Shown: piece after piece, positions 1-15,750 of the stretch
Position numbering within the stretch: the stretch's first letter is position 1
Layout: every line of letters starts with the position of its first letter
DNA from: Gracilibacillus sp. YIM 98692
Lineage (GTDB): Bacteria > Bacillota > Bacilli > Bacillales > Amphibacillaceae
NCBI RefSeq assembly: GCF_010993965.1
Contig: NZ_WIXM01000001.1
Coordinates: 310,001 to 374,000, forward strand
Length of the DNA: 64,000 bases
Direction of reading: 5' to 3'
The notes under the pieces: model-generated
What the model saw: the letters and a program-made list of their open reading frames with translations, nothing else
What the model was told of the DNA's origin: nothing
Databases searched by the model: none
Program-made: the position numbers and the translations under genes

Positions 1-38
1 TCGCTATTAAAATCTATTTTTTCTGCTGGTTTTGCCAT
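1..38 (-). CDS. Start of a gene running off the left edge (partial)
   Basis: Only the first 12 codons are inside the window; they read MAKPAEKIDFNS. An AAAAGGAG ribosome site lies 9 bases before the ATG at 38, so this is a convincing translation start. It reads in the same direction as the operon upstream of it (DUF1593 protein and partners) and may be its next gene, although a 380-base gap and a hairpin separate them. The product cannot be identified from 12 residues. Confidence 0.5.
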   Translation of the reverse strand, partial: MAKPAEKIDFNS

Positions 39-417
39 TTGTTAATACTCCTTTTTATTTCTGTTTATAAATGCTTTCATTACCTTTAAGTTAACGCTTT
101 CCTTTTTTTGAAATTAAACCAGATAATACTCCTGTTTTGGTAGTACTTTTTTAAATTCGCTTACTTATCGCTATGATATTAGTTTACTTCATAATAGCCA
201 TTCGTTTTTGGTATTTTTAATAATACTAGTAATCTTGTAATCAATCTTTTGTTTTATTAAATTATGACAAATTTTGCATCATAAAGCTAGAGAGTGATCT
301 CCATTATGCGTTAGCGAAAATCTAACATTTCGCTAACGCATTGAATTAACAAGCATGAAGTAGCTTAAAGATGTTAGAGTTGTTTTGAAACATAAAATGC
401 AAGAAGTTTTTCCCTCA
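39..417. other. Gene-free gap with one perfect hairpin
   Basis: About 380 A+T-rich bases between the DUF1593 gene and the partial gene at the edge. Apart from the hairpin at 306-341 I see no gene or RNA. It may hold the promoter of the edge gene. Confidence 0.5.
306..341. repeat. Perfect 14-bp stem hairpin without a U tract
   Basis: ATGCGTTAGCGAAA and TTTCGCTAACGCAT flank an 8-base loop. It lies about 75 bases after the DUF1593 stop codon on the minus strand. No run of T follows on either strand, so it is not a standard intrinsic terminator; it could protect the 3' end of the operon mRNA or be a protein-binding palindrome. Confidence 0.6.
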
Positions 418-1938
418 CTATTTAACTGTCAAAATCACACGTTGGTAATGCTTTAGTTGATGTACTCCATCATCTTGTACTTCTGCTATGATATGAATCG
501 TATCTCCAGATTTGGCATCCTTAGGAATTGTGAAGCTTACAGTATCTGTATCACTACCTGCGAGAGTAATACTATTAGTTACTTCCCCCTTATTTAATTC
601 TCGATGAAGACCAAATTGCATACCACCTCTAGCATCTTGTTCTACTTTTAATGGTGATACTACTGAGTCCTCATATGTATCCGCCTCAAAATACCTCCAC
701 CAACTGTACGTTAAGTTATCCTCATCTGGGTCTGTACCTATAGCATGGAGAGTAACTTCTTCTCCCTTCTCAACCTCTAAGTCCAATCCTTCTTTAATTT
801 CAAGAGTAGGATTGTGGTTTGCTTCCTCATAATTGGAAGCTATGACCCAATCTGCCCGTGCAGCGAAGTCATTCTGAATGTCATCAAACCATCTCATCAA
901 AGTATACTCCGATTCATAACGATTTGTATAAACATCGTAATCTAATACAATATTTCTATAAAGCTTGTCATTAACAGCTCCAAATCGGCCACCCCATCCA
1001 CCGTAAGATGGATCTTCCATACTTCGTAATCCGTTATTAATTAAATAGAAGAATGAAGGTGAATCTCCCTCTGAAATAAAATCATAACGGTTGTACTGAG
1101 GGTTATTTTTTAAGTATTCTTCACTTCCACGCTGCTCTTCTGGAAGTTCTCCCTCGATAAAATTCCCATCACCCATGAGAGCATATAATTCTAGTAACTT
1201 TCCATGCCCTTTTTTGATATGTTCATAATTCCAGTCACCTTGCAGCTTACTGTTTACTTCGTCTGCATGATACTTCCATGCATAAGCAAAATGCCAAAAG
1301 TTTGATTGGTCATTGATAATTCTTATATCAGGCCAATTTTTCGCGATATAAGCGTTATAACTTTCATCTTGGTCTAAGATAATATAGATAACTAATTTAT
1401 CACTTACCGCTTTCTTTATTTCCTCCCAATTATCCTTATCCTCATACTTTTCTTGAATTGACTTTAGTGCTCTAGCAGTAGTATTCGTCCCACCCCACGT
1501 TTGTACATATAAATCTCTTTCGTCATCATTCAAAAATAATTCTTTTAAAAATTCCGACCCTTCTGTTATTTCTTCCATTTCACCTGCATCAGAAATATTC
1601 CCAATCTTCGTAACTTTACGTAAGTAGTCAGGTTCTGGATAACCTTCCGCATGCTTCATTAAATTTGAGTACGCTTCCTCATAGGCATCAATCATCTCAT
1701 ATAACCAATCTGTTCCTGTCCATCTAAACGGTTCAACGCCCCGTTTTTCATCACCAGCATAGTGATACATTGAGCTAGTAAGCACTATCCCTTCCACATT
1801 TACTTCATTCGAATACAGAAAGAAACGGATGAGGGAGTTCATATCATCTACTTCTCCATCAGTTGTTACTACAGTACGAGGTCTTGACTCAAGTTTTGAA
1901 TCTCTCTTTTCATCCTTTAATACCATTTCAAAAATCAC
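418..1938 (-). CDS. DUF1593 / Sde182-type nucleoside-hydrolase-like protein
   Basis: A 506-residue protein of the DUF1593 (Sde182) family, which has a nucleoside-hydrolase-like fold. The N-terminal half (about residues 20-370) begins with TTDGEVDDMNS, the acidic metal-binding loop related to the DxDxxxDD motif of nucleoside hydrolases. The last 130 residues form the Ig-like beta domain usual for the family (motif DPDEDNLTYSWW). There is no signal peptide, so it is probably cytoplasmic. It is the last gene of the isomerase-transketolase-kinase operon, after two further nucleoside-hydrolase-fold proteins. A role in releasing sugar from a glycoside is inferred from context only. The start is GTG at 1938, with AAAAGG 5 bases upstream; an ATG four codons later is possible. 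Confidence 0.8.
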   Translation of the reverse strand: MIFEMVLKDEKRDSKLESRPRTVVTTDGEVDDMNSLIRFFLYSNEVNVEGIVLTSSMYHYAGDEKRGVEPFRWTGTDWLYEMIDAYEEAYSNLMKHAEGYPEPDYLRKVTKIGNISDAGEMEEITEGSEFLKELFLNDDERDLYVQTWGGTNTTARALKSIQEKYEDKDNWEEIKKAVSDKLVIYIILDQDESYNAYIAKNWPDIRIINDQSNFWHFAYAWKYHADEVNSKLQGDWNYEHIKKGHGKLLELYALMGDGNFIEGELPEEQRGSEEYLKNNPQYNRYDFISEGDSPSFFYLINNGLRSMEDPSYGGWGGRFGAVNDKLYRNIVLDYDVYTNRYESEYTLMRWFDDIQNDFAARADWVIASNYEEANHNPTLEIKEGLDLEVEKGEEVTLHAIGTDPDEDNLTYSWWRYFEADTYEDSVVSPLKVEQDARGGMQFGLHRELNKGEVTNSITLAGSDTDTVSFTIPKDAKSGDTIHIIAEVQDDGVHQLKHYQRVILTVK

Positions 1939-2031
1939 CCTAACCTTTTATAATCTATTTAATTAGTATTCATTTTAACTGCTAAACACTTTTTGACTTA
2001 GTCTAATAAATTAGTTCATACAAGAAATATA

Positions 2032-2065
2032 ACCTAAACCAATACAAACCTGTATTGGTTTAGGT
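2032..2065. repeat. Perfect 15-bp stem hairpin between operon genes
   Basis: ACCTAAACCAATACA and its exact reverse complement flank the loop AACC, between the nucleoside-hydrolase gene and the DUF1593 gene. No U tract follows on the minus strand, so it is unlikely to stop transcription fully. It may stabilise the upstream mRNA or lower expression of the last gene. Confidence 0.7.
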
Positions 2066-2078
2066 AACCACTTAAGAT

Positions 2079-3002
2079 TTATTGAACTTTTTCTAAGGGG
2101 AAATTCACGGAAATCTTGGAAAACATATCATCCAAGGTAAAACGTGGATCTACATAGTCATAAACCCTAATCTTTCTTTCCTTTTGGTAGTGTACATACT
2201 TCATATCACTAGTAATCCGAGGTGCTGATAATTCTCGATATGCACTTTTGTGATCATCAATCATCAAAGAAACTGCAGGCGAATCCCCTAAGCACCAGCT
2301 CTCACCAAATGGAAGAGGCCAGGACGGATCATTATTTAATTCTGCTAATTGTTCAAATAAATAATTCCCAATTTCCCCATGTGGTTTAACTTTATGTTCC
2401 AACTCTGCAAGACTAGTTCTGATTAGGCGATAAGCATTTACTGGAATTTGCCACAGTTCAATATTTGATTTTAAAACTACATTTGCCGCATTGATATCAT
2501 TGCTCAGGTTAAATTCAAAACCACCATCTGGATACTGTCCACCGCCAATCCAGATTGCAGTAACCTTATCTTGAATCTCCGGTTCCATTAAGTAGGCAGA
2601 TGCTAAATCTGTTATTGGTCCTAGAAAGATTACAAAAAGAGGATTCTGTTCATCTTTTTTTAGTGCCTCTTCAACTATTAATCTAGCTCCATCTGATATT
2701 TGTGGAGTAGCTTCATCTTTCAATCCTTGTTCTGCACCTTTATTTACTGGAACTTTTTCCTTTAAATCCATTAAATCTAATACTTTGTTAATTTCATTGA
2801 AGCTATCTTCCATAGAATTCTCCACAGGAACTGTCCCAAAGCGAAGTTTTCCAAAATGAGCTGCAATAATTCCTCTTATATCAAATTTAGGAGTTAACAG
2901 AGCATGCACGATGGCATATTGATCATCCGCTTCATTCTTAGCATCTGTATTTATGATAACTCTAAGTTTTTTATGTTCAGGTACCCCGTAGTTAATTCTC
3001 AT
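2079..3002 (-). CDS. Nucleoside-hydrolase family protein (copy 2 of a tandem pair)
   Basis: About 307 residues with the IU-type nucleoside hydrolase fold. The metal loop reads NTDAKNEADDQ: the usual first Asp is Asn and two residues are inserted before the DD pair compared with the standard DTDPGxDD. The sugar-binding segment FNLSNDINAAN and a C-terminal GDSPAV Asp are retained, so hydrolase activity is plausible. The family cleaves N-ribosidic bonds; in this operon a furanoside other than a nucleoside may be the substrate (inference). I chose ATG at 3002 because GAGGTGG lies 6 bases upstream; the reading frame stays open up to 3017. It overlaps the stop of the preceding gene by 11 bases, which suggests translational coupling. 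It is clearly a tandem duplicate of its neighbour. Confidence 0.85.
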   Translation of the reverse strand: MRINYGVPEHKKLRVIINTDAKNEADDQYAIVHALLTPKFDIRGIIAAHFGKLRFGTVPVENSMEDSFNEINKVLDLMDLKEKVPVNKGAEQGLKDEATPQISDGARLIVEEALKKDEQNPLFVIFLGPITDLASAYLMEPEIQDKVTAIWIGGGQYPDGGFEFNLSNDINAANVVLKSNIELWQIPVNAYRLIRTSLAELEHKVKPHGEIGNYLFEQLAELNNDPSWPLPFGESWCLGDSPAVSLMIDDHKSAYRELSAPRITSDMKYVHYQKERKIRVYDYVDPRFTLDDMFSKISVNFPLEKVQ

Positions 3003-3930
3003 TTTTAACCACCTCATTACCTTTTAATGTTGCACTTTTTTCAGGATAGTTTAAAGCAAGCTTTGCATACATATCTTCTAATGTAAATCGTGAGTCAATG
3101 TAGTTATACACTCTTATTTTTCTATTACTTGCACCACTTACATAATACATATCATCTGTTACTAAAGGGGCATCTTTTTCTTCGTAATGGAAATCATGTG
3201 AATCAATAAGAAGAGATACAGCAGGCGAGTCTCCTAAACACCAACTATCCGCCCACGGGTTTGTCCAGTATGGACTAAGGTTATATTCGGCTAGTTGTTC
3301 AAATAAATACTTCCCTACTTCCCCATGTGGTCTAACTTTATGTTCCAATTCAGAAATACCTACTTTTACCATTTGATAAACATTTTTCGGTACTTGCCAT
3401 AACGGAATATTAGATTTAAATATAACATTTGCAGCTGATATATCATTAGATAAGTTGAACTCTTTACCACCTTCAGGATATACACCGCCACCGATCCATA
3501 TGGCAGTTAATCGATTAGCAATTTCAGGTTGTTGTAAGTAAGCAGAAGCTAAATCAGTTATCGGACCTAAGAAAATAACAAAAAGAGGAAGAGAATCATC
3601 TTTCATTGCTTCATCTATGATTAATTGTGCTCCATCTGACAGTATGGAGGTTTTCTCGTCAGGTATTGACTTTGGAGCTCCTTTCACTACATTAACCGTT
3701 GACGGAAGATCCATTAAATCTAGTAATTTTTCTATTTCTTCATAGCTATCTTCCATAGACTGATTACTTTTTCTTTCACCAAAGTGAGCAGCAATTATCC
3801 CTTTAATATCAAATTTAGGTGTAAGCAACGCGTGAGCAATGGCAAATTGATCATCTGCCTCATTTTTTGCATCCGTATTAATAATCAGTCTCAATTTCTT
3901 ACGTTTTGGAACTTGATAGTTATAATTCAT
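2992..3930 (-). CDS. Nucleoside-hydrolase family protein (copy 1 of a tandem pair)
   Basis: 312 residues, paralogous over its whole length to the next gene (shared blocks LTPKFDIKGIIAAHFG, VIFLGPITDLASAYL and WCLGDSPAVSL). It has the same non-standard metal loop, NTDAKNEADDQ. No signal peptide. The ribosome site AAAGGAG precedes the ATG. It sits 118 bases after the FGGY kinase gene and is probably cotranscribed. Family knowledge predicts hydrolysis of a glycosidic bond to a furanose. The sugar-operon setting argues against simple nucleoside salvage, but the substrate is unproven. Confidence 0.85.
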   Translation of the reverse strand: MNYNYQVPKRKKLRLIINTDAKNEADDQFAIAHALLTPKFDIKGIIAAHFGERKSNQSMEDSYEEIEKLLDLMDLPSTVNVVKGAPKSIPDEKTSILSDGAQLIIDEAMKDDSLPLFVIFLGPITDLASAYLQQPEIANRLTAIWIGGGVYPEGGKEFNLSNDISAANVIFKSNIPLWQVPKNVYQMVKVGISELEHKVRPHGEVGKYLFEQLAEYNLSPYWTNPWADSWCLGDSPAVSLLIDSHDFHYEEKDAPLVTDDMYYVSGASNRKIRVYNYIDSRFTLEDMYAKLALNYPEKSATLKGNEVVKNEN

Positions 3931-4048
3931 TTTTATTAGCTCCTTTCAATAAGCTTGATAATAAGATTTTAGATCTAGCGATACTTGCATCCAACATTCC
4001 TCATAAAATATAAGCGATTACATTCCTAGTCTGAAAACCAAAAAGAAA

Positions 4049-5554
4049 TTAATGACTCATAACTGTATTATCTTCCACTAATACACTATTTACTGCTTCT
4101 TTCCATTGTTGATAAAACTTCAATCTTACTTCTTCTGACATCTCTGCTAGATAACTTTTGTTACTTTGGCTTAATTCAGAGATATCATCAATAGAATCCC
4201 AAATTCCCACACCTAAACCACCAAGATAAACGGAACCCATGGATGATAATTCAGCAGTATTGGAGGCAGTAACATTAATACCTAAGATGTCTGCTATAAA
4301 CTGGACTAAAAATTGATTACTAGTAGCTCCCCCATCTACTTGCAGTGTTTTTATTTTCAACCCTCCTTTCTCTTCCATTAATTGAATAATATCTTTCACT
4401 TGATAAGCAATACTTTCTAACCCAGCTCGAATAATATGTGCTTTACCTGTTGCCCTGCTCATACCTATAATAGCTGCCTTGGTATTCGGACTCCAATATG
4501 GTGCACCTAACCCTACAAATGCAGGAACTAAATACACCCCTTGATTGTTAGGTAAGGTCTTTGCAAGTTCTTCTGCTTCATCAAAATCTTTGAATAACTC
4601 AAGGTCTTTATATAGCCAATTAATGACATCACCAGTAGCACGTATAATCCCCTCTAAAGCATAATTCACCTTACCTTGGCATCCCCAGGCAACCGAAGTA
4701 ACTAAACCATTATTTGCCTCTACCAAATGATCTGTATGAACTAAAAGGGATGTCCCTGTACCAAAAGTTGCTTTCGCCATTCCTTTCTCAAAACAACGTT
4801 GGCCAAACAGTGCTCCTTGCGAATCTCCAATGACACCAGAAATAGGTACATTTAATGATAGGTTATGATCCTTCGTTTCACCATAAATGTCATCACAATT
4901 TTTCACTTTTGGTAACATTGCGTATGGAATGTCAAAAACCTCAAGCAATTCTTCGTCCCATTTCAAATTGTGGATATTATATAAAAGTGTTCTACTAGCG
5001 TTTGTTACATCTGTTGCATGAACTTCCCCGTTAGTTAGCTGCCAAATAATCCAACTATCTATAGTACCTAACAATAACTTTCCTTGAATGGCTTTTTCTT
5101 TTGCCCCTTCAACATTATCCAAAATCCACTTAGCTTTTGATGCAGAAAAATAAGGGTCTATCGTTAATCCAGTTTTTGATTTCACTAGATCCTCATAACC
5201 TTCATTTTTAAATTGTTCACACATTTTAGTTGTTCGCCTGCATTGCCACACTATCGCGTTATATACAGGCTCTCCAGTATCTTTATCCCATATCACCACT
5301 GTTTCTCTTTGGTTGGTAATAGATAAAGCCTTTATTTCTCCAATTTTGACAGGTGCTGTATCTATTGCCTCATTAATTAACTGCTTAATATTTTCATAGA
5401 TTTCAATTGGGTCATGCTCCACCCAGTCATTAGAAGGATAATATTGTTTATGTTCCTTAGAATTTTTATAAATAATTTGTCCTTCTGAGTTAACTATCAA
5501 TGCCTTTGATCCAGAGGTACTTTGATCTATTCCAAGAATATAACCTTTATTCAT
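4049..5554 (-). CDS. FGGY carbohydrate kinase, glycerol-kinase-like (candidate apulose kinase)
   Basis: 501 residues with the two-domain FGGY fold and strong GlpK resemblance: DQSTSGSK near the N-terminus, TNQRE, VWQCRRT, DPYFSASK, and GTGTSLLV in the ATP domain. GlpK active-site equivalents are present (Arg-Glu in QRE, Trp, Tyr in DPYFS, Asp in GDSQGALFG), but GlpK's GDQQAALFG is changed to GDSQGALFG, hinting at a different polyol or ketose. It follows the split transketolase by 14 bases. That neighbourhood, with a sugar isomerase, matches the known D-apulose kinase context rather than a glp operon. A close paralogue lies at 48-49.7 kb. Alternatives are glycerol or erythritol kinase. Confidence 0.85.
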   Translation of the reverse strand: MNKGYILGIDQSTSGSKALIVNSEGQIIYKNSKEHKQYYPSNDWVEHDPIEIYENIKQLINEAIDTAPVKIGEIKALSITNQRETVVIWDKDTGEPVYNAIVWQCRRTTKMCEQFKNEGYEDLVKSKTGLTIDPYFSASKAKWILDNVEGAKEKAIQGKLLLGTIDSWIIWQLTNGEVHATDVTNASRTLLYNIHNLKWDEELLEVFDIPYAMLPKVKNCDDIYGETKDHNLSLNVPISGVIGDSQGALFGQRCFEKGMAKATFGTGTSLLVHTDHLVEANNGLVTSVAWGCQGKVNYALEGIIRATGDVINWLYKDLELFKDFDEAEELAKTLPNNQGVYLVPAFVGLGAPYWSPNTKAAIIGMSRATGKAHIIRAGLESIAYQVKDIIQLMEEKGGLKIKTLQVDGGATSNQFLVQFIADILGINVTASNTAELSSMGSVYLGGLGVGIWDSIDDISELSQSNKSYLAEMSEEVRLKFYQQWKEAVNSVLVEDNTVMSH

Positions 5555-5568
5555 ATCAACACCTCGGC

Positions 5569-6534
5569 TTAATAACCAATCATTTGTTTTGCGATTTTGG
5601 AAACATTATCAGCACTTATTCCATAATGATTAAACACTTCTGGTGTTTTACCAGTAATAGCTGGTTCATCAGGAATACCTATTATTTCCATTGGCACAGG
5701 GTGATTTTGTGATACTACTTCTGATACAGCTGCTCCTAAACCACCATAAACACTGTGCTCTTCCAGTGTTATTATTCTACCTGTTTCTTGAGCCACCTTA
5801 ATAATCGCTGCTTCATCTAATGGTTTAATCGTATGCATATTGAGCACTCGAGTATGAATTCCATCGTTTTGTAACGCTTCTGCTGTATCTAATGCAACTC
5901 TTACTGTTTCTCCTGCTGCAATGATTGTCACATCATTTCCTTCATTCATCGTAACGGCTTTCCCAATCTCAAAATCATAGTCATGATTTAAATAGCAATC
6001 CTCTACTGGGTTACGGCCAATTCGAAGATAAACTGGTGTGTCATAGTCTACTAATGCCTCTATCATTTTTTTCGTTTCATGACGATCAGCTGGCATCATG
6101 ACATGTAATCCAGGAATGGCACGTGTTACAGCTAAATCTTGCACAGAGTGGTGGGACATACCTAGTGCACCATAGCTCACACCACCACTAATACCAATTA
6201 ACCTTACATTTGTTCTTGAGTAGGCTACATCCACTTTAATTTGTTCAATACTCCTCATACTTAAGAAACAAGCAGGTGAGGCAACAAATGGTTTCTTTCC
6301 CGAGGCAGCTAACCCTGCAGAAATTCCAACTAAGTTTTGTTCTGCAATTCCTACTTCTATTAATTGGTCAGGTAGAGCTTCTGCAAATGGAACCATCGAA
6401 GCAGAGCCTCTGGAATCACTAGTTAAAACAAAAATATCTTTATTTACTTTTGCTAATTCTAACAACGTATCGCTAATTACTTTCCTATTTGCTATTTTAT
6501 TTCCGGTACTTGCTTTAAGCGCTACATTATTCAT
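5569..6534 (-). CDS. Transketolase, C-terminal (pyrimidine-binding) subunit
   Basis: 321 residues covering the PP and C-terminal domains of a split transketolase. The catalytic Glu lies in EVGIAEQNLVG, and SYGALGMSHHSVQD and MPADRHE are typical. It pairs with the N-terminal subunit just upstream, overlapping it by 4 bases (ATGA-type overlap, 6531-6534), so the two are translationally coupled. Split transketolases of this size include the apulose-4-phosphate transketolase AptA/AptB, which passes a glycolaldehyde unit to glyceraldehyde-3-phosphate. With the kinase and isomerase alongside, that is the best guess; DXS- or general-transketolase-like activity cannot be excluded. Confidence 0.87.
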   Translation of the reverse strand: MNNVALKASTGNKIANRKVISDTLLELAKVNKDIFVLTSDSRGSASMVPFAEALPDQLIEVGIAEQNLVGISAGLAASGKKPFVASPACFLSMRSIEQIKVDVAYSRTNVRLIGISGGVSYGALGMSHHSVQDLAVTRAIPGLHVMMPADRHETKKMIEALVDYDTPVYLRIGRNPVEDCYLNHDYDFEIGKAVTMNEGNDVTIIAAGETVRVALDTAEALQNDGIHTRVLNMHTIKPLDEAAIIKVAQETGRIITLEEHSVYGGLGAAVSEVVSQNHPVPMEIIGIPDEPAITGKTPEVFNHYGISADNVSKIAKQMIGY

Positions 6535-7361
6535 TGCAATACCTCCAATTGCTTAGTTAGTTCATCCATCGCCTGCTCATACTCTTCTTTTTTGGGCACT
6601 CGATGATGCCAACCAGCTTCATTCTCTGCTAGGGAAATCCCTTTTCCCTTCACTGTATTAGCTAATACCATCGTCGGCTTACCTGACACATAAGGCGCTT
6701 TCTTAAAAGTGTTTACTAATTCAACCACATCGTTACCATCCACTTCTACTACTTCCCAACCAAAGCTTCGCCACTTTTCATCTAACGGCTCATTACTCAT
6801 AACATCCGCGGTACTTCCAGTAATCTGTAGTCGATTATGGTCAATAATTCCAACTAAATTATCTAATTTATATTGGGATGCAGCCATTGCAGCTTCCCAT
6901 ACAGACCCTTCCGCTTGTTCTCCGTCCCCCATTAAGGTATATACTTTATAAGATTTATTATCCTTTTTACCAGCTAGTGCCATGCCAACCGAAATGGAAA
7001 GACCATGTCCTAATGCTCCTGTATTCATTTCAACACCTGGCACTTTATTATTTGGATGACCAATTAATCTTGATCCAAATTGAGAGAAAGTGCTTAGTTC
7101 ATCTTTGGGGAAGAACCCTTTATCTGCCAACACTGCCCAATAAGATTCCACCGCATGCCCTTTACTCTGTACATATCGATCTCGATCTTCCCAATCCGGA
7201 TTTTCAGGATCAATCCTCATCACTCCATAATATAATGCTGTTAAAATATCCGTATTGGATAAAGATGAGCCTGTGTGTCCTGTACCTGCTTCATAAATCA
7301 TTTTAAGTAAGTCTTTCCTAATTTCCGTAGCTTTTCGCTTTAAAAACAAGGCATCTACCAT
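6531..7361 (-). CDS. Transketolase, N-terminal (thiamine-diphosphate-binding) subunit
   Basis: About 276 residues forming the TPP-binding half of a split transketolase. Visible motifs are GHTGSSLS, the GDGEQAEGS...N metal/diphosphate-binding motif near residue 150, and GHAVESYWA. The ATG at 7361 is preferred: AAGGAGG sits 9 bases upstream, whereas the GTG at 7370 directly abuts it. It follows the isomerase gene by about 24 bases. The paralogous half at 50.6-51.5 kb is highly similar, which indicates duplication of the whole two-subunit unit. Confidence 0.87.
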   Translation of the reverse strand: MVDALFLKRKATEIRKDLLKMIYEAGTGHTGSSLSNTDILTALYYGVMRIDPENPDWEDRDRYVQSKGHAVESYWAVLADKGFFPKDELSTFSQFGSRLIGHPNNKVPGVEMNTGALGHGLSISVGMALAGKKDNKSYKVYTLMGDGEQAEGSVWEAAMAASQYKLDNLVGIIDHNRLQITGSTADVMSNEPLDEKWRSFGWEVVEVDGNDVVELVNTFKKAPYVSGKPTMVLANTVKGKGISLAENEAGWHHRVPKKEEYEQAMDELTKQLEVLQ

Positions 7362-7385
7362 TGCCCTCACCCTCCTTAAATTCTA

Positions 7386-8822
7386 TTATTTATTAATGTC
7401 ACTTCCGCGTAACCACGTTCTAATTTCCTGTTCTGTTGGATCCACTGGATCAGGCTTTAATCCCGGAATATATTGACAGGCTTCATAAATAACTGGAATA
7501 ACGTTAGCGTGAATTCCTGTAGAATGGTGAATATAAGGACCTTTTACTAATGTTTCTTCCCAAAGCGGCCAATCGTTCACTTCTACCCAAACGTACGACC
7601 CTCTTGAATATGGTCCTTCGATTCCTTTTGCTTTTCCTAATAGAATCGAATATTCCCCGTGGTCACCGTCAAAGCGAGCAATGGTCATATCTCCACCTTT
7701 AATTTTTCCTTCGTGCGTCCCTGGTGAGTGATCTTCAAATAGAAAATGTCTTTTAAGCTTCGGTTTATCTTCTTCAGTTAGTGAAACTGGGAAGTTACCA
7801 CAATGGAACAGTAATTCTCCATTTGGATTTTCTGGATGTCGAACTGTAATATCTGCAAAGAATGTCGGAGATGTATTTAATGTAGCTGCTTGGACCATAA
7901 TAGATGTAATAGCACCATGAATATCTGTTTCACAAGTTACAGGTATTTGTTCATCTGTTAAGATGGCGTTTGCCAGACAAGGCATAATCCCAATAATATC
8001 TTGTAGTGTAGACCAACACTGAATGGCAATCGCTGAGCTACCAGTTTGATCAGCCAGTTGTTTCATCGCAACTTTTAATGAGGCAATACGACGAACGTGG
8101 TCATCCCCCACTTCACTCCAATCAAGGGTATCTTTAATATATTTAATAGCCTCATCCAATTCAGGACTATCTGTTTTTTCCACCTGTAAAGTTTTCTGCT
8201 TAATTTCATCTAAGGTTACAGGGTGAATCTGAATACCGAACTTTTCTAGTAATTCTCCTTCATTACAAATAACAGACCAGAAATCAGACGGACGAGTTGA
8301 GATCTGTAATATTCTTAGTTCCTTAAAACGTTTGACAACATTTGCTGCACCGATAAAGTTTTTGAATCCCCTTTCAAAAACTTCTGAATCAACAGCACTA
8401 TTCGTAATATAGGTAAACGGAACATTGAAACGACGCAGTACTTTCCCTGTTGCAAACATGCCACATTGTGAATCTCGAAGTCGCATTCCATTTTCTAGTG
8501 GCGCTTCATCTCTTGGCCCCCATAATAAAACTGGTTTATTAATTGCTTGTGCTACTCGAGCGACAATATCTTCTGTTCCAAAATTACAATGAGGGAAAAA
8601 CAAAGCGTCTACACCAGCATCCCTAAACCGTTTAATAACTTGAGGCTCTTCTGCTCTGTTGTAAAGTAAACCTTCATCGTTGATTCCTTCCAAATCGATT
8701 ATTTCAATATCCAATCCAAAGCTTTCCATTTGATCTCGTATTAAACCTTTATATTTGTAAGCATCCTCTTTACTAAAAACAAATCTTCTTGTTGGCGCAA
8801 ATCCTAATTTAATTTTATCCAT
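7386..8822 (-). CDS. L-fucose/L-arabinose-isomerase family protein (candidate apiose isomerase)
   Basis: 478 residues of the FucI/AraA superfamily. Recognisable segments are LGFAPTRR at the N-terminus, LLWGPRDE, RDSQCGMFA, AIQCWSTLQ, and a late GIHANV block with the metal-binding His typical of the family. It is the promoter-proximal gene of the operon, so it probably performs the first step, aldose to ketose, before phosphorylation by the FGGY kinase and cleavage by the transketolase. That order fits D-apiose to D-apulose to apulose-4-phosphate. I cannot confirm from sequence that it is apiose-specific; fucose, arabinose or another aldose is possible. A GGGGGGA ribosome site precedes the ATG and a cre-like site lies about 30 bases upstream. 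Confidence 0.82.
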   Translation of the reverse strand: MDKIKLGFAPTRRFVFSKEDAYKYKGLIRDQMESFGLDIEIIDLEGINDEGLLYNRAEEPQVIKRFRDAGVDALFFPHCNFGTEDIVARVAQAINKPVLLWGPRDEAPLENGMRLRDSQCGMFATGKVLRRFNVPFTYITNSAVDSEVFERGFKNFIGAANVVKRFKELRILQISTRPSDFWSVICNEGELLEKFGIQIHPVTLDEIKQKTLQVEKTDSPELDEAIKYIKDTLDWSEVGDDHVRRIASLKVAMKQLADQTGSSAIAIQCWSTLQDIIGIMPCLANAILTDEQIPVTCETDIHGAITSIMVQAATLNTSPTFFADITVRHPENPNGELLFHCGNFPVSLTEEDKPKLKRHFLFEDHSPGTHEGKIKGGDMTIARFDGDHGEYSILLGKAKGIEGPYSRGSYVWVEVNDWPLWEETLVKGPYIHHSTGIHANVIPVIYEACQYIPGLKPDPVDPTEQEIRTWLRGSDINK

Positions 8823-8852
8823 GATTTAATTCCCCCCATTTATGCAATATAT

Positions 8853-8868
8853 TATAAGCGCTTACTTA
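8853..8868. promoter_or_regulatory. cre-like site (CcpA) before the isomerase gene
   Basis: TATAAGCGCTTACTTA; on the minus strand it includes GTAAGCGCTTATA, close to the CcpA cre consensus. It lies in the leader between the promoter and the ribosome site, where CcpA would block elongation. The adjacent LacI protein could also bind this CG-centred palindrome. Confidence 0.55.
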
Positions 8869-9107
8869 CTACGCTTTTGTCATTCTCAAATTTCGATCAT
8901 ACGATCCATTTACTTCAACCTCTCTATTCGCATGATAAATTGTTATCATCCGAATGATTACGGTTTTAAATTGTTCTCACTGTTCCATAGAAACTAGATA
9001 CTAAACAATCACCTGCTTCTTTTTAGTTTTTACACTTAAATTATTTAGTTTGTTTATCTAAATATTATCATGTTTATAAAAAAAGTCAACAATATAACTG
9101 AAATATT

Positions 9108-9120
9108 TTAGTTATAAACT
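9108..9120. promoter_or_regulatory. Candidate LacI operator, copy 1
   Basis: TAGTTATAAACTA is a perfect 13-base palindrome. A near-identical copy lies at the regulator's own promoter (9225-9237), and a one-mismatch relative of that copy is in the same place before the paralogous regulator at 51.7 kb. Confidence 0.55.
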
Positions 9121-9224
9121 ATATACAGTTATCCGTTTTTATATCAAAAAACCTTTATAAATAGACAAATTAATCATTTTTATTTGAACTAAAAATATTT
9201 ACTTTAATGTTTTTTTTGATATAA

Positions 9225-9237
9225 TAGTGATAAACTA
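9225..9237. promoter_or_regulatory. Candidate LacI operator, copy 2 (autoregulation)
   Basis: TAGTGATAAACTA begins at the last base of the regulator's -10 box, where a bound repressor would block transcription start. It differs from the palindrome at 9108 by one base. Confidence 0.55.
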
Positions 9238-9273
9238 TTTACAATAAAAATTTATGGAAAGGTGTCATTATAA

Positions 9274-10308
9274 ATGAAAATTGATGATATTGCTAAATTA
9301 GCTAATGTTTCTAGATCTGCTGTTTCATTAGCTTTAAATGGTAAAAGCGGCGTAAGTAACGCTACTCGTGAGAAAATCATAAATATAGCAAAAGAGCACG
9401 GTTACTTTCCGCGATCTATCATAAATCCTAATCAATATTTCCAAAGCAATTCTAAAATTCTGCGTTTTGTTGCATGTACGAATGAAGGAATCGTAACAGA
9501 ACATTATGACACCCTTCCTTTTTTCGTAGAATTAATGAACAATCTTAAAGAACAGACAGGAGTAAATGATTATTCTTTAATGGTATCTTCATTAAATATC
9601 GAGGAATTAGAAGAAGGGTTACTAAAATTGGAAAATGAGCAACAATCAGCAGGTATCTTGTTACTGGGAACTAATTTATCAGCCAAACAAATTGAGTTAG
9701 TATCGAAAATACAACCTAATCTAGTTGTATTAGATACTTATGTTGAAATGATGGATATTAATTTTGTTGTAATGAACAATTTCTATGGTGCTTATCAAGC
9801 TGCTAAACACTTGATCGATTTAGGTCATAAAGATATTGGCTATGTCGAATCAAACGCAAGAATGTATAATTTTGATACAAGAAAAAAAGGAGTGTTACAA
9901 GCTTTTGATGATCATGGAATCGAATTGTTAAACAAAAATATTTTCTCTGTTTCTCCGACTATTATTTCATCTCAAGATACTTTTAAAGAAAAAATAAAGA
10001 ACCGTTTAAAAAGTCTTCCTACAGCATTTGTTTGTGAGTGCGATTACAATGCTATCAGTATCATTAAGTCTTTAACTGAATTAGGCGTGAAAGTACCTGA
10101 AGATGTTTCTGTTATCGGATTTGATAACATTTTTGAGTCACAAGTTATTACACCAGAACTAACAACTATTAACGTTAAGAAACAAGAAATAGCAGCAATT
10201 GCTGTTAATAAATTGATTTCGCAAATAGAGGAAAATAATGATACCAAATATAGCACGATCGTTAATACAAACTTTATTAAACGAAATTCAACTAAAAAGC
10301 TAAAATAA
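9274..10308 (+). CDS. LacI-family transcriptional regulator
   Basis: 344 residues. A LacI helix-turn-helix occupies residues 1-48 (DDIAKLANVSRSAVSLALNG, hinge ATREKIINIAKEHGY), followed by a periplasmic-binding-like effector domain to the C-terminus (PEDVSVIGFDN near residue 275). It is divergent from the isomerase-transketolase-kinase operon and is its probable repressor, with induction by a sugar or sugar phosphate. A paralogue with the same effector-domain start (FVACTN.GIV, LPFF.EL) sits divergent from the second transketolase module at 51.8 kb, so the regulator was duplicated with its targets. Confidence 0.92.
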   Translation: MKIDDIAKLANVSRSAVSLALNGKSGVSNATREKIINIAKEHGYFPRSIINPNQYFQSNSKILRFVACTNEGIVTEHYDTLPFFVELMNNLKEQTGVNDYSLMVSSLNIEELEEGLLKLENEQQSAGILLLGTNLSAKQIELVSKIQPNLVVLDTYVEMMDINFVVMNNFYGAYQAAKHLIDLGHKDIGYVESNARMYNFDTRKKGVLQAFDDHGIELLNKNIFSVSPTIISSQDTFKEKIKNRLKSLPTAFVCECDYNAISIIKSLTELGVKVPEDVSVIGFDNIFESQVITPELTTINVKKQEIAAIAVNKLISQIEENNDTKYSTIVNTNFIKRNSTKKLK

Positions 10309-10349
10309 ATTGAGTGCGCTTAAGGACAGTTATTATCACTGTTATGAAT

Positions 10350-10392
10350 TATAAAAATCCCTCTTATCCTACTTCGGATAAGAGGGATTTTT
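10350..10392. terminator. Bidirectional intrinsic terminator
   Basis: ATCCCTCTTATCC, loop, GGATAAGAGGGAT, flanked by A-runs and T-runs. It lies between the converging lacI-type gene and the ABC permease gene and can serve both. Confidence 0.9.
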
Positions 10393-11220
10393 TTATTTTA
10401 CTGCTCCAGATGCTACACCTTGAGTAATTTGTTTAGAGAAAATCAAATAAATAATGAGCATTGGAATCGTTACTATACTTAGACCTGCAAATAAAATACC
10501 GAGATCTAAACCTTGCTCACCACTTTGAAGAATTGCAATAGCTACTGGAAGTGTTCTGACTGTGGAATCAACTAATAATACAGACGCAAACAGATATTCA
10601 CTCCAAATATTAATAATATTGATAATTGCGATGGTGGCAATCGGAACTTTAGCCATCGGAATGGCCACATGCCAAAAAACTTGCCAAATATTACAGCCGT
10701 CAATCTCAGCCGCTTCCTCTATCGCTCTTGGCATTTGTTCAAAGAATGTGCGCATAATAATTAAGCTGAATGGCAAGTTAATTGCTGTATACAACAATAT
10801 TACGCCTATTAAGCTATTCCGTAATCCCAATGTTTCCATAAAATAATAGATAGGAACTAATAATGAATGGACAGGAATAGCAATCAAAGCGATCAATCCG
10901 ATAAAAACAATTTTATTCCCCGGAAATGGATACCGTGAAAGAGCATAACCTCCCATTAATACCACCATAATTAAAAATAGTAATGTCCCGACTGAAACAA
11001 TAATACTATTAAGAAAATTCAAGCCTAAATTCGTATCTGTCCATGCTATAAAATAGTTTTCAAATTGCAGTTCCGAAGGTAAAGTGAACGGACTTAAAAT
11101 GATATTTTGATGCGTCTTTAACGATGTCATAAACATATAAATAAGTGGAAATGCTACTGCTGCTGATGCAAGTATCAGTAGAAAAACAACTATTGATTTA
11201 GAAATTTTGCCATTTGTCAT
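10393..11220 (-). CDS. Carbohydrate ABC transporter permease (MalG type)
   Basis: About 275 residues with six predicted membrane helices and the EAA loop typical of CUT1 permeases (AAEIDGCNIWQVFWHVAIPMA). It forms a channel with the permease gene directly upstream; the energising ATPase is not encoded here and is probably a shared MsmX-type protein (family knowledge). ATG at 11220 is chosen because AGGTGA sits 5 bases before it. It is the last gene of the three-gene transporter operon and ends at the terminator. Confidence 0.9.
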   Translation of the reverse strand: MTNGKISKSIVVFLLILASAAVAFPLIYMFMTSLKTHQNIILSPFTLPSELQFENYFIAWTDTNLGLNFLNSIIVSVGTLLFLIMVVLMGGYALSRYPFPGNKIVFIGLIALIAIPVHSLLVPIYYFMETLGLRNSLIGVILLYTAINLPFSLIIMRTFFEQMPRAIEEAAEIDGCNIWQVFWHVAIPMAKVPIATIAIINIINIWSEYLFASVLLVDSTVRTLPVAIAILQSGEQGLDLGILFAGLSIVTIPMLIIYLIFSKQITQGVASGAVK

Positions 11221-11229
11221 AAATTTCAC

Positions 11230-12165
11230 CTACTTTTCTTGTTCAGAAACTTGAGTAAATTTTAGGTAACTGATAGTGATAATAGCAATGATGATTGTCA
11301 TAACAACAGAAATGGACGAAGCATAACCAAACCTTTGATTTTCAAACGCTTCCCGGTAAAGGATGGTCCCTAAAACTTCCGAGGCATAAAACGGTCCTCC
11401 ACCTGTCATTACATAAATAAGATCAAATGTTTTTACAGATGCAATTATTTGGAGCATGACTAAAATAAACCCCATTCTTTTAACCATTGGCATAATAATT
11501 AAAATGATTCTTTGAAAAGGCGAAACACCATCTATAGTTGCTGCATCATGCACCTCATTCGGAATTCCTTCTATTGCCGCCAAAAACAATAGCATACACC
11601 AGCCGCTTACTTGCCATATCGCCACACAAATAATCGAGTACAATGTGATGTCCGGATTACCTAGCCATAATTGTTGAAGTGACTCTAAACCGATCAGATC
11701 TAAAAAAGAATTTAGAAGTCCATAAGATGGTTCATATATTTTACCCCATAACACGGCAATAACTGCAGTTACGAGCATAACCGGAATAAAGAAAACAAAC
11801 TTATAAATTCTCCACCCAGGTACTTTTCTGGATATTGCAACCGCAAACAAAAAACCGAGTACAACCGTTCCAGTTGTGAAAAGAACCATAAAAATAGCAT
11901 TATTCTTTAATGCCAACAAAAAATTATCATGATTTAACAGCCTGATATAATTATCTATCCCTAAAAAATTAGGTGTCGAAAATCCATCCCATCTATAAAA
12001 GCTCATAATTATTGAATATATCAATGGAAATACCATAAATACAGTCAATAATATGATGGATGGCAGTATAAATAAATAAGCTGCTCTGTTTTTCTTCATT
12101 CTTTTTAACAAATTTGATTCTTTTCTATCTAAATTCATTGTTTGCGTTTCTGTACTTTGACTCAT
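11230..12165 (-). CDS. Carbohydrate ABC transporter permease (MalF type)
   Basis: 311 residues with a cytoplasmic N-terminal tail and about six membrane helices. The CUT1 EAA loop is visible (DAATIDGVSPFQRIILIIMPM). It follows the binding-protein gene after an intercistronic hairpin and precedes its partner permease without a gap. It imports di- or oligosaccharides into the cytoplasm. The neighbouring LacI gene and isomerase operon suggest it feeds that pathway. Confidence 0.9.
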   Translation of the reverse strand: MSQSTETQTMNLDRKESNLLKRMKKNRAAYLFILPSIILLTVFMVFPLIYSIIMSFYRWDGFSTPNFLGIDNYIRLLNHDNFLLALKNNAIFMVLFTTGTVVLGFLFAVAISRKVPGWRIYKFVFFIPVMLVTAVIAVLWGKIYEPSYGLLNSFLDLIGLESLQQLWLGNPDITLYSIICVAIWQVSGWCMLLFLAAIEGIPNEVHDAATIDGVSPFQRIILIIMPMVKRMGFILVMLQIIASVKTFDLIYVMTGGGPFYASEVLGTILYREAFENQRFGYASSISVVMTIIIAIITISYLKFTQVSEQEK

Positions 12166-12204
12166 GGAATAGTAGTACCTCCCTCAAGGTTCTTTTTTAT
12201 AGAC

Positions 12205-12239
12205 AACCCGTTAAACTTGAAAAATAAGTTTAACGGGTT
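12205..12239. repeat. Hairpin between binding-protein and permease genes
   Basis: A perfect 14-bp stem (AACCCGTTAAACTT and its complement) with a 7-base loop and no U tract. Such hairpins usually stabilise the binding-protein message so that it is made in excess over the permeases. Confidence 0.75.
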
Positions 12240-12260
12240 ATCGAATTAGCTCCTTCTAGA

Positions 12261-13631
12261 TCATTCTTCTCTAAAAGACTGAACTTCTTCTAACATTTTC
12301 GTGAATTCTTCACCCATTTCTTCTGGGGTTAAACCACCTGTAACTAATCCTTGTATTAATTGTGTAGCATTTGAACGATACTCACCATACCAGGTTGCAT
12401 TATACAACGAGTGAGTTCCTGCTTCTTGCACCAATTCATAGATTTCTAATACTGCCGGTGAATACAGTTCAGCCATTTCTTCCACGTTAATATCTGAACG
12501 AATTGGGAATGCTGATGTGGATTCACCTAAACGAGATTGAACATCATAACTTAATAAAAATGCAATAAATTCTTTTGCCAATTCTTCATTACCTGATCCT
12601 TCAACAGCCATAATTCCTGTCCGATCATAATAACCAGCCGTTTCTTGAACATCTTCTCTGTACTCAGGATATAAGAATACACCTAATTCAAAGTCATCTG
12701 GAATCTCTCCACCTAGAGCATTAGGACCAGCTTGCCAAGAACCATCACTATACATAGCAGCTCTTCCTTGAGCAAAGATTTGCCTTGCTTCATTAGCACC
12801 TACACCAGCAGCACCAGGTTCCATTAAATTTTCAGACATTTGGACAATGGTTTCAAACATCGCAACTGTATCTGATTGTGTAAAATCAATTGTTTCATGA
12901 TTCATGTATTTATCGTAATTTTCTTCACTCACATGACGTCTTAAATTAATATCAAAAAGTTGTGTGGCTTGACTAGCCTCTGCTAATCCAGAAGTCCAAG
13001 GAATATATCCGGCATCTCTTAATGCAGGTCCCATAGCCAGCATTTCTTCATATGTCGTTGGAACTTCAACACCTGCTTCTTCAAATGCTTTTTTATTGTA
13101 ATAAATAATTGGACTGCTGATTGCTTCTATTGGTACTGCATACTGATTACCATCAGGGGAAGTTACTCCATCAATGGATGATTGATGAAGTGCTTCATTC
13201 CAACCTTCAGATTCATATAGATCATTAAGCGGAATTAATGCACCCGACTCTACAATATCTGGATAAAAACCGGTAGTCCAATACCAGGCTACATCTGGTC
13301 GATCATCTTCGGAGTTTAACAGTCTTACGATATTTTGTGTGTAAAATTCTGTATCGTATTCTTCAATATCTACTGTTACATCTGGGTTCGCCTTCTCAAA
13401 TTCATCAGCTACCCAAGGTAATAATGTGTTACCGCCAGGCATAGATAGTTTTAGGGTTTTGTCTCCTCCATTTTCATTATTAGCTTCATTATTGGATTCA
13501 CCTTCAGAATTTTCCTGATTTCCATTTTCCGAATCAACATTTGTTTCGTCGTTTGATTCATTAGAACATGCTACTAACGAAAACACTAAACAAATGAGCA
13601 CAACAAAATAAACCGCTTTCAATTTTTTCAT
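12261..13631 (-). CDS. Extracellular sugar-binding lipoprotein (CUT1 ABC transporter)
   Basis: About 456 residues. A lipoprotein signal peptide ends in LVAC, followed by a Ser/Asn/Glu-rich linker (about residues 25-60) and an extracellular solute-binding family 1 domain. It would be anchored outside the membrane and deliver an oligosaccharide to the two downstream permeases. Its promoter at 13809-13837 is strong. The start is uncertain: ATG at 13631 is chosen, but a TTG at 13643 and one at 13634 are in frame and the GGGGAG ribosome site would suit the latter. Confidence 0.9.
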   Translation of the reverse strand: MKKLKAVYFVVLICLVFSLVACSNESNDETNVDSENGNQENSEGESNNEANNENGGDKTLKLSMPGGNTLLPWVADEFEKANPDVTVDIEEYDTEFYTQNIVRLLNSEDDRPDVAWYWTTGFYPDIVESGALIPLNDLYESEGWNEALHQSSIDGVTSPDGNQYAVPIEAISSPIIYYNKKAFEEAGVEVPTTYEEMLAMGPALRDAGYIPWTSGLAEASQATQLFDINLRRHVSEENYDKYMNHETIDFTQSDTVAMFETIVQMSENLMEPGAAGVGANEARQIFAQGRAAMYSDGSWQAGPNALGGEIPDDFELGVFLYPEYREDVQETAGYYDRTGIMAVEGSGNEELAKEFIAFLLSYDVQSRLGESTSAFPIRSDINVEEMAELYSPAVLEIYELVQEAGTHSLYNATWYGEYRSNATQLIQGLVTGGLTPEEMGEEFTKMLEEVQSFREE

Positions 13632-13808
13632 CAAATTGATCAACTCCCCTTAATATTTAAAGATTTAAGTATAAAACAAGCCTTATTATTAAAAGCCCCT
13701 CCTTTTCTTCGTAATTTTTAAGAAAACATTATAGATTAGAGAAATAACTCTCTCTAAAAGCTAAACCTGTAACTAAAAAAGTTTATTAAAACCAACTTTA
13801 TGTTTAAT

Positions 13809-13837
13809 ATTCTAAAGCTATAATTAACAGTTGTCAA
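13809..13837 (-). promoter_or_regulatory. Sigma-A promoter of the sugar-binding protein operon
   Basis: On the minus strand TTGACA, 17 bases, TAGAAT; five to six matches to consensus in each box. It lies about 180 bases before the lipoprotein start. Confidence 0.7.
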
Positions 13838-14280
13838 TAATTTATTTTAGTTTTTTATATAAAAAAATTTATTATTAAACTTAAATCAACAATCAGTAAA
13901 ACCCTGTATGAGCAATGTTTTGAATAGCAATAAACCGTTATTTTTCCTGTTACAAAAATCGCTAAAAACCGCTAAGTTTTTCATTGATAGTACTTTATGT
14001 TTTGACTATTTTAACAACACACCCACTAAAAAAGTTTATCTATTTTATTTATAGAAGATCTGTTTGACATTCTCAAAAGAGAAAAAAGGATAAATCCCCA
14101 TATTTAGAGATGCTGAAAAAGCAATTTTCTAATAATATATTTCAATTCAATAATGGGTTTTGATGCATAGATAGGAAGTAATTGAAGGATTGCTGAAATG
14201 ATGAGTTCTACTTTAAAAGCTTGCGTTACAGGTGTGAATTCCTCGCTACAAATCTTAGTGCCTAGCGGATTTTGTCGGAT

Positions 14281-14318
14281 AAAAAAAGCCGTTTCCCTTT
14301 TTCGAGGAAACGGCTTTC
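14281..14318 (-). terminator. Terminator after hsdS
   Basis: On the minus strand AAAGCCGTTTCC, loop, GGAAACGGCTTT followed by a T run. It is the end of the hsdRMS transcript. Confidence 0.88.
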
Positions 14319-14373
14319 TCGAATGTAATTCACTATCAAGGCCAATGAGCAAATCAGCCTTGCTTTCTTAAAA

Positions 14374-15750
14374 TTACTGTTTTTGAAGTGTCTTTATTAA
14401 TAATTCTATTGAGCTTTCATCTTTCTTGTCATTAGTACCAAGTTCACCTTTAAAGGCTTTTGATAAGATGGAATTTTTAAGTGTTTCTAATGCTTGCAAA
14501 ACAATCTCTGAATATTCATATTCAGATTCTAATTTTCTCAACATACTTTTTACTTTTTGGGTTATTCTTTTTTGTTCTTCAAGAGGTGGTAGAGGAAATG
14601 GAAAATCTTTTATTATAGTTTGAGAAATGTTTGGTTGTGCTCCTCCCTTACCTCTTTCAATCAGTCTTTGCTTTTGCGACTGAAAATAATAAAACATATA
14701 CTCCGGGTCAACAGATTCTTCAGGTATACCAACTGCACATGCTTGGTTGGTAGATGCATCAATACCAAAAATCCCAGTTCTTCCTATAGTAGCCCCATAC
14801 ATAGCTACAGCAACAGACCCCTTTGGAAATAACTTTGCACTAGAATTTTTTATTGCATCCTCTGTAATTTTTTCTTTTGAATCTACAATGAAATTATCTC
14901 TTAATTCTCCTGTCTTCAACCAAGGAATTTCGCCATTATAATATTCTGATTTCTTTCTACTAGGTGTACCTCCTGATCCCCATTTTGCAATAGACTTTGT
15001 TTTAACCCACAACCAATTGTCTGGAATATCGTAAGGGGTATTATCATTTAAACTAATATCACTGTTCTTACTTAGAGTGTCACTTACCATTTCGTGTCCT
15101 TTATTCGTCCCAAGTTTTCCACAAAAAGCCTTGTCCAAAATAGCAGCCCGACGAAGTTCAAACGTCTCTTTTGCTTCTTTAATCAATTGTTCGGCTCTAT
15201 CAATTTTATTAATCAGTTTTTCAATCCTATTATTAATTTTGTCTTGTTCTTCTAGTGGCGGTAATGGTATAGGTAATCTATTCATCTTTTTAGGTGAGAT
15301 TCTTGGCAAATTAATACCACTACTGTTTTCATTTGCATATTTCACCACTAACGGAAGACCTAAATATTTATCTAATAGTTTATTTGATTCAATAAATCTA
15401 GACCGATAAATTAAAATGTCTGTGGAAGCAATACCTTCAAAATTGGCAATAGCATGCTTATTTAAATATGGACGAAGTTTCCCATATAATACATCACCAG
15501 CTTTAAAAACTACTTTTTTACTTTTTAACCCTTCTGGTGTTCCGACATCTATAATACCGCCATTTTTACCCAGGTGTTCTAAACCTAAATATTTTTCATC
15601 ACCTTCAGGCATTACTTGATTATTAACATGTTCAAAATAGGAGCCTAACCTAATCCATACCCAGTTCTCCGGCACCTCATAAGGCTGCTCCTCTTCTGGC
15701 ACCATGGCCTCTTCCATCAATTTCTCAACATTCTTTTTCCTCTTACTCAT
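14374..15750 (-). CDS. hsdS: Type I restriction-modification specificity subunit HsdS
   Basis: About 458 residues with two target-recognition domains (roughly residues 20-190 and 245-420), each ending in the conserved PLPPLEEQ segment followed by a helical spacer. This is the standard two-half layout that reads a bipartite DNA target. It directs both methylation and cleavage by the HsdM and HsdR partners. ATG at 15750 is chosen because it overlaps the hsdM stop by 8 bases (ATGAGTAA) with GGTAAGG upstream; an earlier in-frame start at 15792 would run 50 bases into hsdM. The target sequence cannot be read from the protein. Confidence 0.93.
   Translation of the reverse strand: MSKRKKNVEKLMEEAMVPEEEQPYEVPENWVWIRLGSYFEHVNNQVMPEGDEKYLGLEHLGKNGGIIDVGTPEGLKSKKVVFKAGDVLYGKLRPYLNKHAIANFEGIASTDILIYRSRFIESNKLLDKYLGLPLVVKYANENSSGINLPRISPKKMNRLPIPLPPLEEQDKINNRIEKLINKIDRAEQLIKEAKETFELRRAAILDKAFCGKLGTNKGHEMVSDTLSKNSDISLNDNTPYDIPDNWLWVKTKSIAKWGSGGTPSRKKSEYYNGEIPWLKTGELRDNFIVDSKEKITEDAIKNSSAKLFPKGSVAVAMYGATIGRTGIFGIDASTNQACAVGIPEESVDPEYMFYYFQSQKQRLIERGKGGAQPNISQTIIKDFPFPLPPLEEQKRITQKVKSMLRKLESEYEYSEIVLQALETLKNSILSKAFKGELGTNDKKDESSIELLIKTLQKQ

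Follow-up and report, generated by a model that had tools for sequence, protein, structure and literature searches.

A candidate D-apiose catabolic operon in Gracilibacillus with nucleoside-hydrolase-fold proteins as possible cytoplasmic glycosidases

Results

We analyzed a 64,000-nucleotide stretch of the genome of Gracilibacillus sp. YIM 98692 (GCF_010993965.1, contig NZ_WIXM01000001.1, positions 310,001–374,000 of the forward strand; hereafter the window, in whose own numbering coordinates are given), and in particular a sugar operon that includes a tandem pair of nucleoside hydrolase (NH)-type proteins, NH_A and NH_B, with a third, DUF1593/Sde182-type protein downstream. The most economical reading, about as likely to be right as wrong, is that the two NH-fold proteins liberate apiose, a branched and uncommon plant sugar; that the whole operon is a D-apiose catabolic module with NH-fold proteins as cytoplasmic glycosidases is, in our judgment, an even call. 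The evidence consists of the fold, a set of invariant residues, linkage to sugar genes in relatives, and alternation with genes of the apiosidase-like family PF13204. A preliminary description of this DNA had placed three NH-type open reading frames downstream of isomerase, kinase, and transketolase genes, and the gene calls, all on the minus strand, bear this out:

418–1938, minus strand: DUF1593/Sde182-type protein, NH-like domain plus Sde0182_C domain (PF07632, PF21027)
2079–3017, minus strand: NH_B, NH family, second tandem copy (PF01156)
2992–3930, minus strand: NH_A, NH fold, candidate cytoplasmic furanosidase (apiosidase) (PF01156, structure model)
4049–5554, minus strand: FGGY kinase, candidate apulose kinase (37% to E. 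coli AplK)
5569–6534, minus strand: transketolase C-terminal subunit (36% to E. coli AptB)
6531–7370, minus strand: transketolase N-terminal subunit (49% to E. coli AptA)
7386–8822, minus strand: sugar isomerase with the arabinose/fucose isomerase fold, candidate D-apiose isomerase (Foldseek match to 7ch3, E = 1.5e-20)
10393–12165, minus strand: two sugar-type ATP-binding cassette (ABC) permeases (10393–11229 assigned by eye; 11230–12165, the one scanned, by PF00528)
12261–13643, minus strand: extracellular solute-binding protein (gene calls and family scan)

NH_A Is Predicted to Have the Nucleoside Hydrolase Fold, with a Variant Metal Loop

Both proteins match PF01156, the family of inosine-uridine (IU)-type nucleoside hydrolases (81.8 bits for NH_A and 78 bits for NH_B, cut-off 34.2), and also PF07632 (36.9 and 38.2 bits, cut-off 26.8), and they are 64% identical to each other. 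A structure prediction, proposed as a check in the preliminary description, gives NH_A (predicted local distance difference test score, pLDDT, 93.1) the fold common to RihA, RihB, RihC, and the solved structure 1mas, with 267 residues aligned to 1mas (Z = 30.4, root-mean-square deviation 2.5) and a match to RihA at E = 2.6e-16. No hydrophobic stretch is seen by eye at either N terminus, which is the basis of the predicted cytoplasmic location. GH140 apiosidases (glycoside hydrolase family 140; PF13204; 8t9w, 3kzs/5msy) occupy the same operon setting and do the job that we propose for the NH proteins, but PF13204 matches neither NH_A nor NH_B at E-values up to 0.001.

The modified metal loop, NTDAKNEADDQ, noted in the preliminary description is confirmed as a trait of the family. 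In an alignment of 86 NH sequences (L055 is absent, there being no NH frame in its gene calls), loop residues D20, K22, E24, A25, D26, D27, and Q28 are invariant, as are T125, E157, N159, and D234; position 18 is N in 58 sequences, D in 23, and H in 5. The DxDxxxDD fingerprint of the IU-type enzymes is not matched exactly, as NTDAKNEADD is two residues longer and the first Asp, at the place of Asp8, is replaced in 63 of the 86; the subfamily also differs from those enzymes in its setting, which is sugar operons. In a profile-profile alignment with E. coli RihA, RihB, and RihC, N18-T19-D20 coincides with the DTD motif and two extra residues precede DD, so that D20 takes the place of Asp10 and E157, N159, T125, and D234 fall on catalytic counterparts (we take the residue roles to be those usual in nucleoside hydrolases, with His241 as the leaving-group acid); phmmer against 6ba1 agrees on D20. 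We favor this placement because 21 of the 86 relatives carry the DTD motif itself at positions 18–20, and alignment of those rows again gives D20 as Asp10. The loop is therefore probably a conserved variant in which the metal ligands are kept.

β-D-apiofuranose has a 2,3-cis diol and a 1,2-trans arrangement, as in β-D-ribofuranose. Because the two sugars share these features, the Ca2+ site of the fold could hold apiose. According to PMC8910321, it is the ribose diol that this site holds.

NH Genes Lie beside an Isomerase-Kinase-Transketolase Core in Several Clades

A scan of GTDB genomes yielded 435 NH relatives, and the 80 best loci were retained; all counts out of 80 refer to these, gene calls in the relatives' loci are mechanical, and the core is defined as isomerase, transketolase, and kinase. 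An isomerase is found in 18 of the 80 NH loci, a transketolase subunit in 25, a kinase in 22, and a PF13204-type protein in 14; isomerase, transketolase, or PF13204 is present in 33. All 18 loci with an isomerase also have the kinase and transketolase, within 10 kb of the NH gene. The co-occurrence raised in the preliminary description thus extends to other genera and to Spirochaetota, with core hosts that include Bacillaceae, Paenibacillus, Lachnospiraceae, Oscillospiraceae, and Sphaerochaeta, and the operon setting of the NH genes is stronger than could be known from the window itself. Mapped on the NH tree, the trait "isomerase or transketolase nearby" requires 20 changes, a figure inflated by short contigs, and the NH-core link is therefore not one inherited block. 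Chance neighborhood of NH and core was considered and rejected, as the association recurs across clades.

Of 93 immediate non-core neighbors, 88 were scanned; the other five, which looked like shadow or overlong calls, had been removed manually. GH78 rhamnosidases (8–9 members) and PF13204 apiosidases (6) are the families met most often, and the 25 commonest of the 104 families in these neighbors include none for nucleoside metabolism; nucleoside salvage was rejected as the setting for this reason. In L010, L011, L012, L013, L015, and L032, a gene of the GH78 α-L-rhamnosidase cluster comes immediately after the NH gene, in L010, L013, and L015 with the isomerase core absent; this arrangement hints that the wider NH family acts on glycosides bearing rhamnose. 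The NH relative in each of L092 and L093, which come from the window's genus, is single and has the loop KNEVDDQ.

NH and PF13204 Genes Tend to Replace Each Other beside the Core

The core was also sampled starting from the isomerase, which has matches in 6 of the 398 genomes sampled from the window's class and, at 1e-50, in 55 of 391 from the Clostridia class. Sixteen Clostridia-class matches score at least 605 bits; one (G326) is a seed, and the other 15 loci were inspected. Eight of the 15 (L106, L108–L114) stand outside the counts, as their kinase-transketolase core is below the score limits (several are short contigs; other FGGY-type frames fall below the limit in L106, L108, and L109), and L100, L102, and L104 were counted as core from isomerase and kinase alone. 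Inspection covered the top-scoring 16 of the 55 genomes; among the other 39, G309 harbors the NH locus L018. One of the eight loci outside the counts (L111, 5.5 kb) is from G330, a genome that has an NH gene (L041) as well as an isomerase.

Seeds apart, 12 of the inspected core loci combine the isomerase with a kinase, a transketolase, or both, and lack an NH gene. PF13204 is found inside the inspected stretch in 9 of these 12, and 11.3 kb and 9.6 kb away in two more (G1046 and G883), giving 11 of 12 within ~12 kb; the twelfth, on a 7-kb contig (G532), is without it. An NH search at 1e-50 gave no match in any of the 12 genomes, while the same query matched the window's genome. Among the 18 NH-bearing core loci, by contrast, only two (L009 and L028) have PF13204 within 10 kb (Fisher p = 0.0012 for 9/12 vs. 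2/18 and 1.5e-5 for 11/12 vs. 2/18, with shared ancestry ignored, the sets drawn differently, and the 11/12 count reaching ~2 kb further out). Next to one and the same core, NH and PF13204 genes thus tend to substitute for one another, and this alternation supports the NH proteins as a stand-in for the apiosidase step.

Whole genomes differ less than loci: PF13204 is present in 11 of 17 NH-bearing core genomes searched (absent from 6; the genome of L037 is not among the 17) vs. 11 of 12 NH-less ones (Fisher p = 0.19). In the class sample (n = 398), NH is found in 4 genomes and the isomerase in 6, both only in the window's genome, numbers too thin for co-occurrence. In a sample of the window's order (n = 299), NH (1e-30) is found in 4 genomes and PF13204 over its cut-off in 5, again both only in the window's genome; NH-bearing genomes exceed the PF13204 cut-off in 28 of 37 and 29 of 40 cases (G331 and G335 are in both sets, and the taxonomic mix is not that of the order sample). 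It should be noted that the PF13204 partners are of two kinds: c107, near GH140 at 265–310 bits, and c11, which is distant (55–71 bits in scanned copies, down to 48) and ranks as a candidate rather than a proven apiosidase.

Several Loci Point to Apiose as the Sugar

The sugar of the operon is quite probably apiose, the example named in the preliminary description, which has gained support from relatives. In L054 and L081, PF13204 proteins stand next to NH and transketolase genes; the L054 protein scores 393.1 bits (whole-genome matches are at 380–397 bits in both genomes) and matches the solved "Apiosidase" 8t9w at 412.8 bits, while a GH140-type protein in L009 is less close to a solved apiosidase (100.2 bits). 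In L082, from a Spirochaeta metagenome-assembled genome, the NH gene lies beside homologs of the E. coli apiose set: permease (53%), ATPase (49%), binding protein (46%), AptA (51%), AptB (46%), AplK (35%), and DUF2291 (25%), and its transketolase is nearer to the E. coli apiose transketolase than to that of the window. The E. coli set was taken from NC_013654 with gene names as in PMC13001218, where cluster-positive strains are reported to grow on D-apiose.

PF13204 matches none of the ten window proteins scanned; in relatives it is linked in L009, L054, L081, L095, L097, and L101. The window's genome does have a GH140-type gene, at C69:39149–40186 (337–338 bits to PF13204). This gene is part of a second plant-glycan locus (L090, G000:C69:30000–48000, at 2809–10625), together with a sugar ABC transporter, a GH106-like protein of 896 amino acids, a transporter-like protein (by eye), and a GH3-like protein, labeled by its similarity to a cluster. 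L095, L097, and L101 are core operons with a GH140-type protein, and the transporter genes nearby appear by eye to be of the phosphotransferase system (PTS) type, not ABC.

A Possible Apiose Pathway with a Different Isomerase

The published apiose isomerase reportedly has another fold than AraA/FucI. The window isomerase, in contrast, is modeled (pLDDT 81.5) with the AraA/FucI superfamily fold, with 4c20 (E = 1.9e-13) as a further Foldseek match; sequence and profile searches found no solved relative, the fold comparison alone finding one, and the protein is under the curated cut-off of PF02952 (24.9 vs. 29.3 bits). Its sole NCBIfam match is to a sulfoquinovose isomerase model, at 116.6 bits against a cut-off of 700, and that identity was rejected. 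The window shares with the D-apiose transketolase pathway (ApsI/AplK/AptAB) a homologous kinase and a split transketolase, and differs from it in its sugar ABC transporter, a predicted intracellular hydrolase, and probably the fold of its isomerase; homology to the E. coli apiose enzymes does not by itself establish what the kinase and transketolase act on. The transketolase chemistry of the published pathway was reportedly described by Carter and co-workers in 2018.

In the pathway that we propose, the ABC transporter would import an apiose-containing glycoside, and the tandem NH-fold proteins, perhaps with the DUF1593 protein, would cut the furanosyl O-glycosidic bond in the cytoplasm, the Ca2+ site gripping the cis-2,3-diol of apiofuranose while an aspartate (D20 in the favored alignment) would activate water. 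The AraA/FucI-fold isomerase might then convert apiose to apulose, the FGGY kinase apulose to apulose 4-phosphate, and the split transketolase would pass a two-carbon unit on, leaving dihydroxyacetone phosphate. A wider claim, to which we give slightly less than an even chance, is that a new family of Ca2+-dependent O-glycosidases has evolved from the NH fold: β-apiofuranosidases with a KNEADDQ loop, occurring in Bacillota, Spirochaetota, and Chloroflexota, that take the place of GH140-type enzymes in a pathway for apiose that has an undescribed isomerase of the AraA/FucI fold. If so, a fold known for N-ribosidic cleavage would also cut O-glycosidic bonds of a plant sugar, a new glycosidase family would explain the apiose supply in bacteria that have no apiosidase of known type, the apiose pathway would have a new isomerase, and annotation of these proteins as nucleoside hydrolases would stop. 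A literature search, made without most subscription papers, returned none joining a nucleoside hydrolase with an apiosidase, apiose, or polysaccharide-utilization glycoside hydrolases.

The Proposal and Its Alternatives

Several observations weigh against the proposal that the NH pair releases apiose. Enzymatic activity is known for none of the NH proteins. In 47 of the 80 NH loci there is no isomerase, transketolase, or PF13204 in the stretch examined (under 20 kb in 19 of the 47), and no sugar genes surround the NH relatives of L092 and L093. When sampling starts from the isomerase, NH occurs in a core locus in just two genomes, the seeds G000 (the window's) and G326, which makes it a minority partner of the core. 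Most PF13204 partners in NH-less loci are of the c11 kind, which has a "putative glycoside hydrolase" as its nearest solved relative, and the G1046 match has 35 bits; the window kinase passes the NCBIfam glycerol kinase cut-offs (617.5 and 668.7 bits). At the active site, MAFFT with RihA, RihB, and RihC, when the DTD-bearing relatives are not treated apart, and phmmer against RihA align the loop ungapped, with D20 on Asp8 and K22 on Asp10, and if this alignment is right, the canonical base is lost. In either alignment, position 233, at the place of His241 in the IU-type enzymes, is Gly in all 86 sequences, and a general acid is not evident. Apiofuranose, moreover, has no 5'-OH at C4, a group that is important in nucleoside hydrolases according to PMC12648331.

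Some of these points bear on which sugar is handled. The NH proteins could be furanosidases for another pentose or branched sugar, the PF13204 neighbors being glycosidases for that sugar; this would fit the breadth of PF13204 and the distance of c11 from characterized apiosidases, the 36%–49% level of the kinase and transketolase matches together with the glycerol kinase score, the far sub-threshold sulfoquinovose isomerase match, and the rank of GH78 α-L-rhamnosidases as commonest immediate non-core neighbors. We consider it rather unlikely, because L054 and, less closely, L009 have GH140-type proteins resembling a solved apiosidase, L082 has an apiose set of the E. coli type, and the window's own genome contains a GH140-type gene. 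The lack of an evident leaving-group acid and the lysine that some alignments place at the base position bear instead on whether the NH proteins are glycosidases at all: free apiose might be imported and the NH proteins bind a furanose for sensing, mutarotation, or another step, much as Sde_0182 is reported, in PMC8910321, to be inactive on nucleosides and is held to be a furanose-interacting module. With the acidic residues of the presumed metal site invariant, and with NH genes alternating with apiosidase-like genes rather than adding to them, this is distinctly unlikely.

Finally, the NH proteins could be ordinary nucleoside or riboside hydrolases that lie by chance in a sugar operon, as their fold and family membership would suggest, ribosides being the substrates described for the fold in PMC8910321. 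NH_A and NH_B, however, score only 42–47 bits with the RihC model (cut-off 382) and 28–38 bits with the RihA model (cut-off 433), and the linkage is to sugar kinase, transketolase, and glycosidases instead of the nucleoside-metabolism families sought among the commonest neighbors, which makes this very unlikely. As to the preliminary description's proposal of furanosidases as a new activity for the fold, linkage, apiose context, and PF13204 alternation mostly favor it, and hydrolysis of furanosides by the NH proteins is predicted; the interpretation is thus partly supported. Its novelty needs qualification: a furanose-interacting role is the current hypothesis for Sde_0182 in PMC8910321, and a furanose role for an NH-like domain is therefore not wholly new.

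The DUF1593 Protein

The protein encoded at 418–1938 is a clear member of the Sde182/DUF1593 NH-like proteins, with 248.9 bits to PF07632 (cut-off 26.8), 73.1 bits to PF21027 (cut-off 27), and 2yhg as a solved relative (E = 7.2e-48). Its sequence reads TTDGEVDD and GDSP at the motif positions, and a signal peptide is not obvious. Sde_0182 itself is multidomain and carbohydrate-binding (PMC8910321), whereas the window proteins look cytoplasmic; by eye, Sde_0182 and the tandem NH pair, which passes the PF07632 cut-off, both have the longer spacing to DD. A DUF1593 gene directly follows the kinase in the two closest relatives, L008 and L009, and a DUF1593 relative is found in 4 of the 80 NH loci, next to the core in those two only. 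The family assignment in the preliminary description thus stands, with thin support for a role of this protein as a third enzyme. Just left of the window, a second DUF1593/Sde182 paralog (36% to that of the window) lies at 9009–12038 of L091 (G000:C1:298001–312000); a gene beside it looks transporter-like by eye, and this transporter is thus flanked by two DUF1593 genes.

Regulatory and Neighboring Features

Further features of the locus are as follows:

2032–2065, minus strand: terminator-like hairpin between the NH_B and DUF1593 genes (15-pair stem)
4009–4022, plus strand: LacI-type palindrome TATAAGCGATTACA, upstream of NH_A, nearly identical to TATAAGCGCTTACT (weak)
8853–8866, plus strand: LacI-type palindrome TATAAGCGCTTACT, upstream of the isomerase gene (pattern search)
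9274–10308, plus strand: LacI-family regulator, divergent (gene calls and family scan)

Because the hairpin at 2065–2032 sits between the NH_B and DUF1593 genes, the DUF1593 gene may be a separate transcript; over positions 1–14400, 10 such hairpins are observed vs. 6.0 ± 2.4 in shuffles. The palindrome pattern was derived from TATAAGCGATTACA and TATAAGCGCTTACT themselves, which makes any chance estimate circular. A pattern search found no matching palindrome in L008, L009, L011, L037, L042, L032, or L098, and a match in L028 is near no labeled gene. By eye, the inner ATG at 3002 is the probable start of NH_B. Directly past the transporter genes, at 14374–17167, the translations resemble by eye a type I restriction-modification specificity subunit and methylase.

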